DNA of 64,000 nucleotides, taken from contig JAPLKI010000021.1 of the NCBI GenBank assembly GCA_026388155.1, forward strand, positions 1 to 64,000, read 5' to 3'. The notes under the pieces were generated by a model. It searched no databases. It was not told where the DNA came from and saw only the letters and a program-made list of their open reading frames with translations. The stretch is from Elusimicrobiota bacterium (GTDB taxonomy: Bacteria > Elusimicrobiota > Elusimicrobia > Elusimicrobiales > UBA9959). How positions within the stretch are numbered: position 1 is the first letter of the stretch; each line of letters begins with the position of its first letter. The position numbers were made by a program, and so were the translations under genes. Positions 8,659 through 64,000 of this stretch are shown here, in pieces.

Positions 8659-10969
<2,311 letters not shown>

Positions 10970-10985: not shown

Positions 10986-11027
10986 GGGTCTGAGGGTCGC
11001 AGGGTCTGAGAGTCGAAGAGTCATAGG
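10986..11027. repeat. Word-repeat arm, 3' side of the four-helix-bundle gene
   Basis: Purine-rich repetition of the words gggtctgag, gggtcgcag and gagtcgaagagtc. It includes the stop codon of the four-helix-bundle gene (11021-11023). It is complementary to the arm at 11435-11493, sharing the core gtctgagagtc and its complement gactctcagac, so the gene lies between inverted arms about 400 nt apart. Confidence 0.6.
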
Positions 11028-11410
11028 ATTCTTGATGACTGGGAATTATTCAGATACTTGATGAAGTTTTGGGATTGGCGGCTTATTTCATCTGACATTT
11101 CATATGTTTTATCAAAAGCAGCCTTGCTTATGTAGTCTAAGTCCAGTGCTACATAGAGTTGGCTTTGAACCTCCGCTATGGAACCGTGCGCGATATGCAG
11201 AAAATTAGCAAACGCTTTGTCGCTTCTCCTTGCAAATCCCTCGGCAATATTGGACATTACTGAAATTGCCGCTCTTCGTATCTGGCTCTTAAGGTCAAAG
11301 TCCCGTTTAAATCCCTCGTTTTCCGAGGTTACATGATAAATAAGCATAACAAGCTCACGGGACTTCTTCCAAACCAGGATATCCTCGAACCTCTCGATCT
11401 TGGTTTCCAT
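11021..11410 (-). CDS. Four-helix-bundle protein of the S23 / 23S rRNA intervening-sequence family
   Basis: The 129-aa protein carries the family signature: FEDILVWKKSRELV at the start, SQIRRAAISVMSNIAEGFAR in the second helix, and a basic FANFLHIAHGSIAEVQSQL third helix. Family members are encoded inside intervening sequences of 23S rRNA in Leptospira and other bacteria and are related to the Avd protein of diversity-generating retroelements; they bind nucleic acid. Here the gene sits in a polysaccharide locus, not in rRNA. It is bracketed by complementary word-repeat arms (10986-11027 and 11435-11493), which recalls the stem that closes an rRNA intervening sequence. The ribosome binding site is weak. 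Confidence 0.85.
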   Translation of the reverse strand: METKIERFEDILVWKKSRELVMLIYHVTSENEGFKRDFDLKSQIRRAAISVMSNIAEGFARRSDKAFANFLHIAHGSIAEVQSQLYVALDLDYISKAAFDKTYEMSDEISRQSQNFIKYLNNSQSSRIL

Positions 11411-11434
11411 TTTGTCGTTAACTTGGCCTTAGGG

Positions 11435-11493
11435 GCTTGGGGTCGTAGAGTTATTGACGCTTAGACTCTCAGACTCCCCGACTCCTAGACGTC
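11435..11493. repeat. Word-repeat arm, 5' side of the four-helix-bundle gene
   Basis: Contains ggggtcgtagagt followed by actctcagactcccc, so it can fold on itself as well as pair with the arm at 10986-11027. Word composition (gtctgag/ctcagac, gagtc/gactc) is shared with the other arm and with no coding sequence. Confidence 0.6.
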
Positions 11494-11574
11494 TTACGAT
11501 ATCCTTATTATATAAATTATGGACGGGGATAGTGAAGTGTAACTTTTGATAAAGAGAGGGACAGATGAGAGGAA

Positions 11575-18414: not shown

Positions 18415-18591
18415 TTCTACTGCCATACGCCTTAGGCCGTAAGCCATAGGAAGAAAGGTTGCCATAAGCCGTATGCTTTAGGCCATAAGCTATAAGGAAA
18501 CTCCTAAAAAGCATATGGCATACGGCGTAAAGCTTATGGCAGCCTTCCGGCTTATGGCCTATGGCAAGCGCGGCGCTCTTATGGCGTAGAA
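18415..18591. repeat. Large word-repeat hairpin between nifU and nifS
   Basis: About 177 nt made from permuted words gccataagc, gccgtatgc and ttaggcc. The right half is the imperfect reverse complement of the left half; both arms begin and end with ttctac/gtagaa. Arms of ~85 nt could pair with few interruptions. The same words recur at 30605-30700 (gccataagct, then taaggaa). It is not a simple terminator because it lacks a T-run. Confidence 0.8.
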
Positions 18592-23324: not shown

Positions 23325-23342
23325 TTAAATGCTCCTTAAAGT

Positions 23343-23418
23343 AGAGCTGAAGATCTGAAGCGCTGAAGGCTTAAAAAAGCTCTTTACTTCAGAGCTTCAG
23401 GACTTCAGCGCTTCAGCT

Positions 23419-23420
<2 letters not shown>
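23343..23420. repeat. Word-repeat hairpin between gyrB and gyrA
   Basis: Left arm 23343-23371 and right arm 23393-23420 are built from the words ctgaag, gatctgaag, cgctgaag and their complements. One arm begins at the gyrB stop codon (23419-23421). Pairing needs a shift of one 8-nt word, as if the words had expanded or contracted. No T-run follows on the minus strand, so it is unlikely to be an ordinary terminator in this operon. Confidence 0.75.
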
Positions 23421-25923
<2,503 letters not shown>

Positions 25924-26253: not shown

Positions 26254-26330
26254 GAAGACATAATTCAGTAGTCAGAAGGAATATGGCAGGAAAAAAATTT
26301 TTAATATTCTGAATACTGACTTCTGTCTTC
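26254..26330. repeat. Word-repeat hairpin between dnaN and the DUF721 gene
   Basis: Left arm 26254-26284 (gaagacataattcagtagtc and onward) pairs with right arm 26304-26330 (atattctgaatactgactt and onward) over about 25 positions with a handful of mismatches. The loop is A+T-rich. A run of eight T follows on the plus strand, but the adjacent genes are transcribed from the minus strand, so the T-run is not downstream of either. Confidence 0.75.
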
Positions 26331-41213: not shown

Positions 41214-41367
41214 GGAGAAATGCAAAGTTTAAAATGTAAAATGGCGGAAAAGATTGCGCGCCGGTTAAAACCAATCGTTAATTTTTCGGTTTAGGCCGGT
41301 TTTTCTGTCCGGTTTTCCTCTCAATTTTTCACTTTTCATTTTGCATTTTTCACTTTACACTTTGAGT
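41212..41367. repeat. Word-repeat hairpin between nfu and the PHP gene
   Basis: The left part (gaggagaaatgcaaag, tttaaaatgtaaaatgg) is complementary in words to the right part (cacttttcattttgca, then tttttcactttacacttt and gag). The middle repeats a ccggtt/aaccgg theme. Arms start at the nfu stop codon and end 6 nt before the ATG of the PHP gene. An alternative TTG start of the PHP gene falls inside the right arm. Confidence 0.65.
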
Positions 41368-42192: not shown

Positions 42193-42920
42193 AAATAATA
42201 GCTCATCGCGGGGCTTCAGGTTATGCCCCCGAGAACACGCTCGCGGCTTTTGAACTGGCGGTTAAAATGGGCGCCAGCTATTTTGAATTTGATGTGCACC
42301 GCACCAGAGACGGGATTCTGGTCGTTCACCACGATTTTGACTTAAAAAGAACGGCCGCGAAAGAGGTTAAAATAGCGGAGCTCTCATACGCCGAACTGAA
42401 AAAAATAAATGTGGCCGCGCATTTTGCCGCAAACCCGTCTTTCCAGAGGATCCCAAAGCTTGAGGAAGTGATGGAGATTATTGAACCTGCCGCGTGCTGG
42501 CTGAATTTTGAGATAAAGAACGATAATAATGTATACCCCGGCATCGAGGCGGAGCTGCTAGCTTTTTTGCGCTCAAGGCCCGGCCTTTTTGAAAAGGCGC
42601 TGGTTTCAAGCTTTGATTACGGCACGCTTAAACGCCTCCGGAAACTTTCCCCTGAACTGCGCCTCGGTTATTTGGGCAACAGCCTGAATACCGTCCCGCT
42701 GCTTCCGGCGCTGAAAAAAGCGAAAGCCGTGGGAGCGGTCAATTTCAACATGAGCAGCCGCCTGGCTTTCAAGCTGAATGTGGCGGCGCTGAAGAAAGCC
42801 GGTTTCGTCGTTTACGTTTATACCGTCAACGACAGGAAAACCGCCCTTAAAATGGAAAAAATCGGAGTGGACGGGATTTTCAGCAATTATCCGGATATAA
42901 TGGGGAAAGTTGGGAGTTGA
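42189..42920 (+). CDS. Glycerophosphodiester phosphodiesterase (GDPD)
   Basis: Hydrolyses glycerophosphodiesters to glycerol-3-phosphate and an alcohol. The 243-aa TIM barrel opens with the catalytic IAHRGASGYAPENTLAAFELAV and continues with EFDVHRTRDGILVVHHD, where the E-x-D and H are the metal and acid/base residues. VNFNMSSRL and VYTVNDRKTALKMEKIGVDGIFSNYPDIM complete the family pattern. No signal peptide, so cytoplasmic. Starts in the end of the PHP gene (ATGA). The stop codon lies inside the first words of a word-repeat hairpin. Confidence 0.92.
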   Translation: MKIIAHRGASGYAPENTLAAFELAVKMGASYFEFDVHRTRDGILVVHHDFDLKRTAAKEVKIAELSYAELKKINVAAHFAANPSFQRIPKLEEVMEIIEPAACWLNFEIKNDNNVYPGIEAELLAFLRSRPGLFEKALVSSFDYGTLKRLRKLSPELRLGYLGNSLNTVPLLPALKKAKAVGAVNFNMSSRLAFKLNVAALKKAGFVVYVYTVNDRKTALKMEKIGVDGIFSNYPDIMGKVGS

Positions 42921-43000
42921 GAGTTGTGAGTTTGGAGTTTAAAGATTTTAAACTCTTGAGCTCTTAACGCATAACTCCAGACTCAAAACTCTTAACTCTT
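42908..43000. repeat. Word-repeat hairpin between the GDPD gene and nadA
   Basis: Left arm gagttgagagttgtgagt (from 42915) and onward through ggagtttaaag; right arm aactcttgagctcttaac ... actcaaaactcttaactct. A 27-nt stretch of the left arm pairs with the right arm with four mismatches. All words are variants of gagtt. The arm includes the GDPD stop codon (42918-42920) and ends 3 nt before the nadA ATG, leaving nadA without a usual ribosome binding site. Confidence 0.75.
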
Positions 43001-57701: not shown

Positions 57702-57790
57702 CAGGGGCAAGCGGATAGCGTATAGGGATTGGGGAAGGAACTCCTTCCCTGAACCCCTATACGCTCGCCCCTGGCCCCTATCCTTTCTGG
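57702..57790. repeat. Word-repeat hairpin between the two oxidoreductase genes
   Basis: Left arm caggggcaagcggatagcgt (from 57702) continuing atagggattggggaagg; right arm ccttccctgaacccctata continuing cgctcgcccctgg. Pairing over ~35 positions is nearly complete around a ctcc-type turn, with a small indel in the atagcg word. It fills the gap, leaving TCTGGAG as the ribosome binding site of the next gene. Confidence 0.8.
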
Positions 57791-63920: not shown

Positions 63921-64000
63921 TAGTGTAGAGTGGAGAGTGTAGAGAATTAAATTGAAATTTAAGATTTAAGTTCTACGCTCTCCACTCTCACTTTTTAGTG
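63921..64000. repeat. Word-repeat hairpin at the right window edge
   Basis: tagtgtagagtggagagtgt (63921-63940) with agagaa pairs with ttctacgctctccactctca (63971-63990) over more than 20 positions, around an A+T-rich loop (attaaattgaaatttaagat). The arm may continue beyond the window. Confidence 0.75.

Follow-up and report, generated by a model that had tools for sequence, protein, structure and literature searches.

An S23-family gene between locus-specific inverted word arrays, a probable minimal mobile DNA element in an Elusimicrobiota genome

The closest described counterparts of this locus are the intervening sequences (IVSs) of 23S rRNA genes, which have already been called selfish and possibly mobile and which, as in Coxiella burnetii, resemble it in gene family (S23/IVP), in size (~0.4 kb) and in holding one open reading frame between complementary ends (PMC4990558). 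Genes named 23S_rRNA_IVP have also been listed in cas loci as CRISPR-associated (PMC3936711, PMC10910872), and the paper on structure 2GSC, as cited in PMC3936711, has the quaternary structure of five four-helix bundles in its title. Avd of diversity-generating retroelements (DGRs; structure 4DWL) has the same fold as S23 (TM ~0.7-0.86) and falls within the same Pfam family at low score. Heptameric GGGAATC and GGGGA(C/T)T repeats of Xanthomonas and Nostoc are intergenic, with inverted pairs frequent in Xanthomonas (70 and 75 pairs), and were described as G-quadruplex simple repeats not generally tied to mobile elements (PMC4692102).

Within the window (the whole 64-kb stretch of DNA that was analysed), a first-pass annotation had pointed to an S23-family gene enclosed by complementary word-repeat arms and had suggested an autonomous mobile element outside rRNA. 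In our view this feature is probably a single copy of a minimal element of mobile DNA, ~0.4-0.5 kb long, with S23 as its sole gene and locus-specific inverted word arrays as its ends. The suggestion of mobility is supported by arms at S23 genes elsewhere, a clean insertion at GTAAT, words that track the protein and hairpins that track the words of their genome.

The S23 gene of the window and its arms

The locus comprises the following features.

11021-11410, minus strand: S23/IVP four-helix-bundle gene, 129 aa, the element's sole gene (ORF, profile matches, AlphaFold model)
10986-11027, no strand: word-repeat arm downstream of the S23 gene, 8-nt words GGGTCTGA/GGGTCGCA/GAGTCGAA, includes the stop codon (direct-repeat family D1, inverted repeat I1)
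11435-11493, no strand: complementary word-repeat arm upstream of the S23 gene (inverted repeat I1, core 11455-11490)
11507-11536, minus strand: promoter-like site TTCACT-18-TATAAT just beyond the upstream arm (weak: 2 found against ~1.3 expected by chance)

The family assignment of the 129-aa frame was borne out by profile search, with both curated cut-offs exceeded (TIGR02436, 118.3 bits against 24; PF05635, 119.9 bits against 33.8). Its AlphaFold model (pLDDT 92.8) is predicted to be a four-helix bundle like 2GSC and 2RLD, which have five chains each; the top ten PDB matches were all 2GSC and 2RLD, Avd 4DWL came next, and the structure matches also included a DGR ribonucleoprotein. Residues Q43, S50, N54, I55, E57 and E80 are conserved in the S23 alignment. 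Profile search of the element found no transposase, recombinase or reverse transcriptase, its single gene matching S23-type families only.

The arms are likewise real. Their cores (10988-11023 and 11455-11490) are 36 nt long, 78% complementary and 431 nt apart, with GTCTGAGAGTC at 11004-11014 and GACTCTCAGAC at 11464-11474, and the left arm does hold the stop codon (11021-11023), as had been noted. When the upstream flank was aligned locally with the reverse complement of the downstream flank, the arms scored 20, a value attained in 0/2000 shuffles (maximum 16.5). Folding the element as RNA, a check proposed at the outset, gave z = -3.28. The gene sits between glycosyltransferase-like and chain-length-determinant-like genes in an exopolysaccharide locus; it is not within a 23S rRNA gene, and the 64-kb window has no Rfam match. 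Complementary ends enclosing an ORF, as in 23S rRNA IVSs, which RNase III cuts out of the transcript, are found here in another setting. Elsewhere in the window, word-like direct repeats (ccacgaacccacgaatccc, caattaacagctaac) at 9495-9560, inside an epimerase-like ORF (8659-9648, minus strand), look as if a word array had entered that gene in frame.

Word arms and word grammar at other S23 genes

Profile search of the window's genome (3.36 Mb) returned six PF05635 matches. One, L006 on contig C17, is an Avd-like DGR gene that has no arms and lies ~2 kb from the genome's only RVT_1 reverse transcriptase; the genome (G000) therefore has a probable DGR on that contig. The adjacent reverse transcriptase expected of a DGR Avd is not found at the window's S23 gene, which is on C21. 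The remaining five loci carry tandem words on their flanks, different at each.

L001: TGTAGAG
L002: CTTAGAA
L003: GCCATAGG
L004 (the window locus): GTCTGAGAGTC
L005: GGCTAGCGG

Arm complementarity at L001-L004 has a cross-locus p of ~0.012 or less, and that of L005 is weak and does not rise above the null.

The design of gene plus arms is general, and the window locus is not a one-off. S23 matches occur in 22/41 genomes of the window's Elusimicrobiota family, and among the 55 non-Avd loci of this family with full flanks, 47 scored above the 95% point, and 30 of these above the 99% point, when the null was built by pairing flanks of different loci. A set from many phyla (including Bacteroidota, Patescibacteria groups, Nitrospirota, Acidobacteriota, Planctomycetota, Cyanobacteriota, Proteobacteria and the archaeal Methanophagales) gave 64/80 and 38/80 respectively, with 0/61 control flanks taken 1 kb away above the 99% point. 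A third, mostly proteobacterial set, drawn mostly from a protein search across a whole class, centred on a Ramlibacter genome, gave 30/40 above the 95% point, about seven of its loci repeating others. The expectation that other S23 genes would have word repeats of their own was therefore realised at most non-Avd genes, in relatives and unrelated genomes alike, and the element class looks widespread and overlooked, spanning bacteria of many phyla and some archaea. The Avd-like loci L006, L037 and L064, which share the fold and have a reverse transcriptase close by, had no word arms (scores 9-11). Cross-locus nulls, distal flanks and shuffles rule out a chance or low-complexity artefact, and a direct rather than inverted relation of the arms was weak (5/58 above the 99% point). 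No rRNA context was seen at 20 chosen low-scoring S23 loci, the window element had no match in E. coli genomes, and an S23 protein had none in phages.

Two arrangements of other kinds were also seen. At L141 (373-4096) and L036 an S23-like domain opens a long frame (~1180 aa) that continues into a sequence reading as a secreted, PQQ-repeat-like protein, with a word arm within the signal-peptide region, and upstream of the S23 gene L015 a 45-nt unit with GTCACAAG words is repeated several times.

The words differ at almost every locus and have a period in common. A period of 7 (or 14) was best in 85/115 arms and 8 in 21/115, with a median aligned arm length of 45 nt. When the 7-nt words of 85 loci were aligned in phase, they had a core of A/T, then A (0.61), then G (0.76), the other four positions being largely free (EM score of the common core 125.9, null 101.3 +/- 2.7). 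What is shared is thus the 7-nt, sometimes 8-nt, period and the (A/T)AG core, so that the grammar is common and the words are local.

Words also follow the protein. Across 112 loci, word and S23 protein similarity were correlated (Mantel r = 0.172, null sd 0.039, p = 0.0005), and words were shared by 29/29 pairs at 70% protein identity or more, by 56% of pairs at 60-70% and by ~12% below 50%. A GAGTC-type word is common to the window locus and to L013, whose protein is the nearest aligned relative of the window protein (65%), and the closest pair between Elusimicrobiota and another phylum, L012 and the cyanobacterial L245 (71% identity), shares a CAGAATTCAGAAGTCAG-type word. Between Elusimicrobiota and other phyla the correlation was marginal (p = 0.057), and much of the concordance may therefore be plain common descent of the unit.

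The first-pass annotation had likened the locus to the gene-in-a-stem design of rRNA IVSs. The complementary ends bear this out, but a conserved RNA stem does not follow from them: wobbles at arm mismatches numbered 214 on the coding strand against 268 on the opposite strand, with no coding-strand excess of G.U. A stem maintained in coding-strand RNA is not supported by this asymmetry, which argues instead for DNA word arrays, and the likeness is outward only.

Gene-less hairpins and the occupancy of sites

The whole 64-kb window contains 12 inverted repeats of score at least 15, where block shuffles give 0-1, and seven gene-less word hairpins, none assigned to a strand.

18436-18565: GCCATAAG words common to L003 of the same genome, between minus-strand iscU-like and iscS-like genes
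23342-23421: CTGAAG words, between minus-strand genes reading as gyrase A and B
26254-26330: CAGAA words, best match S23 locus L012 of a genus-mate
41215-41351: AAATGCAAAG words
42914-42998: GAGTTGTGAGTT words
57703-57779: AGCGGATAGCGTATAG words
63927-63988: GAGAGTGTAGAG words common to S23 locus L001 of the same genome

Across three species of the window's genus, 53/62 gene-less hairpins match some S23 word, and they resemble the S23 words found in their own genome (0.517) more than those of the other two (0.326; permutation p = 0.0002). As with MITEs, then, gene-less copies share their ends with gene-bearing ones; in these relatives arms and gene change together, and copies that have the words but not the gene are scattered through the genomes. 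Hairpin density rose with S23 copy number in 22 genomes of the family (Spearman 0.66, p = 7e-4, confounded by G+C and kinship). This correlation comes from the stricter of two hairpin counters, the looser one having caught GC-rich coding false positives and given no significant association with S23 number (p 0.07). In genomes scored S23-free, one call was a false positive lying in coding DNA; the two real hairpins came from G010, in which a long frame in fact opens with an S23 domain.

For most S23 loci, the orthologous site in genus-mates is without the gene, and many such sites hold a hairpin of other words. Intergenic orthologous sites of sister species (L081, L086, L087, L070, L071, L099, L101 and others) often have hairpins of wholly different words, as if one replaced another in place. 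At L090 and L091, in two genus-mates, the spacer beside a threonyl-tRNA synthetase-like gene is filled by a dispersed repeat of another type (gagcaccggccgtcaccgattaaaggccggcg). Clean empty sites were not seen in the genus, other hairpins or repeats being in place; the lack of a bare pre-insertion site there counts against mobility. The exopolysaccharide locus, and with it the window's own S23 site, has no orthologue in the two genus-mates, so that the window's own copy counts as a putative insertion.

A clean insertion was found on cyanobacterial plasmids, where S23 genes also occur. The S23 unit is present in the conjugation region of Trichormus variabilis 0441, ATCC 29413 and Scytonema NIES-4073, and absent from the same region, 97% identical there, on plasmids of Aulosira, Nostoc carneum and Microchaete. 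The empty allele reads aaaaaGTAATtaacaa (longer form aaaaaGTAATtaacaaata), and the occupied allele aaaaaGTAAT aaatcagaattcagaag ... gagttcttcttt GTAATtaacaaata, in short aaaaaGTAAT-[element]-GTAATtaacaa. A 5-bp target duplication, GTAAT, thus brackets the S23 gene plus arms (L245/L260 against L249-L251), as expected of a transposable element, and the empty allele is wholly free of words, so that the arms came in with the gene. This is the one fully clean insertion with target duplication, and it lies in a phylum other than that of the window's host. The presence/absence comparison that the first-pass annotation called for was accordingly answered on cyanobacterial plasmids, and in the window's genus it yielded no clean target site.

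The cyanobacterial plasmids vary further. The GTAAT site of Nostoc C052 (L252) holds a truncated, decayed S23 remnant, and elsewhere this plasmid has two gene-less insertions of the same word family that are absent in six relatives. Nostoc C057 (L259) has a gene-less composite insertion with GTCA on both sides, where L258 has a single copy of GTCA. An Anabaena sp. 90 plasmid (L247) carries an S23 gene with word arms between cas6 and cas4, and a 98.7%-identical Dolichospermum cas locus (L315) has no S23 gene, another repeat lying there instead, which fits insertion and not a cas function. No target duplication was readable at the cas6-cas4 site or at Calothrix plasmid sites.

These sites bear on an alternative in which the word hairpins belong to the host, as simple-repeat or mRNA hairpins subject to turnover, and S23 genes only enter their loops in the manner of rRNA IVSs, an IVS replacing a small loop (PMC4990558). 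That gene-less hairpins are common, and that orthologous sites in genus-mates often hold hairpins of different words, would suit it. Against it, the empty plasmid allele is wordless, words track both the S23 protein and the genome's own set of S23 loci, and the sampled S23-free genomes are essentially without such hairpins. We regard this alternative as unlikely.

Proposed mechanism and relation to known systems

S23 genes read in the same sense as their neighbours in 81/86 co-directional gene pairs. This orientation would also fit an RNA intermediate, and together with the Avd fold and the match to a DGR ribonucleoprotein it could suggest a retroelement in which a host reverse transcriptase, acting on the hairpin RNA with its S23/Avd-like protein, would make the copies. 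A need for a host RVT_1 enzyme is not supported: no RVT_1 match was found in G001, which is 97% complete and has 7 S23 loci and many word hairpins, or in G006 (8 loci, 98% complete), and the wobble counts give no sign of a coding-strand stem, which leaves an RNA route improbable. Less probable still is an immobile locus that serves the host, S23 acting as a regulator or as an RNA-binding protein of toxin-antitoxin type and the arms as its regulatory sites. The conserved residues and the co-directional position between operon genes might speak for it, but it sits poorly with patchy presence, many copies at unrelated sites, copies that are decayed or gene-less and dispersed, the cleanly inserted copy with its target duplication and orthologous positions mostly vacant in the genus.

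For the mobile DNA element that we prefer, the 2GSC/2RLD-like fold with five bundles, the lack of G.U bias, the two S23-rich genomes without RVT_1 and the co-direction together suggest an S23 ring that binds word arrays while other enzymes cut and join. At each end would lie an array of about six degenerate words of 7-8 nt, the two arrays being inverted, and in each word 4-5 letters particular to the element would come after the (A/T)AG core. S23, probably a five-membered ring like its crystallised relatives, would bind the arrays at both DNA ends, at a guess one word per subunit, and draw the ends together. Cutting and joining would fall to a host nuclease, recombinase or replication enzyme, which we assume because S23 has no recognised catalytic domain; the lack of a recognised nuclease or recombinase domain itself counts against the proposal. 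Protein and words would drift jointly, giving each lineage its own words, and gene-less hairpins would be copies that have decayed or lost their interior and were moved in trans. S23 may persist mainly where it reads with a host operon, and its prevailing orientation fits survival through read-through expression.

A wider generalisation, to which we give even chances, would place S23 genes, each the only gene of its element, in an ancient and large class of minimal mobile elements that spans bacteria and archaea and moves with no recognised transposase, each lineage having its own 7-nt word on an (A/T)AG-N4 grammar co-evolving with a ring-shaped S23. Many 'heptameric simple repeats' would then be gene-less copies, 23S rRNA IVSs would be copies that landed in rRNA, and DGR Avd would be a domesticated relative. 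If true, this would give a function to a common 'four helix bundle protein' family and explain the origin of 23S rRNA IVSs and of many intergenic heptamer repeats. It would also offer a simple reason, stray insertion, for IVP genes among cas-associated genes, and it poses the question of how DNA could move when the element supplies no more than a four-helix bundle of 130 aa, and how protein and word change jointly. In the literature searched, preprints and most subscription papers excepted, no paper links S23 genes with word repeats, and none brings together the IVS, heptamer and cas-locus observations. The window's element most likely belongs to a mobile element class undescribed in that literature, S23 having so far been described mainly inside 23S rRNA genes.

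Set against the 23S rRNA IVSs, elements of the window's type lie outside rRNA, have multi-copy word arrays as ends and give no sign of RNA-stem conservation; they occur many to a genome, each with its own words, and have gene-less dispersed relatives and, at one plasmid site, a clean target duplication. The IVP genes of cas loci (PMC3936711) belong to the same family as L247, which has word arms between cas6 and cas4, and may owe their cas association to stray insertions. The heptameric repeats resemble S23 arms as intergenic 7-nt words, and were described without a link to a gene or mobile element (PMC4692102). As 2GSC is from X. campestris, a species that also has heptamer repeats, a link between S23 and heptamers is a prediction; a close Xanthomonas match to XCC0516, sought for GGGAATC flanks, was absent from the sampled sets. 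DGR Avd differs in its setting, the Avd-like L006, L037 and L064 being near a reverse transcriptase and armless. MITEs and REPIN/RAYT pairs likewise have short gene-less inverted-repeat copies beside a gene-bearing copy. In REPIN/RAYT the gene-bearing copy has a RAYT domain and the ends are one conserved repeat, whereas S23 elements have neither a transposase nor a RAYT domain, and their ends are locus-specific words on a common 7-nt grammar.
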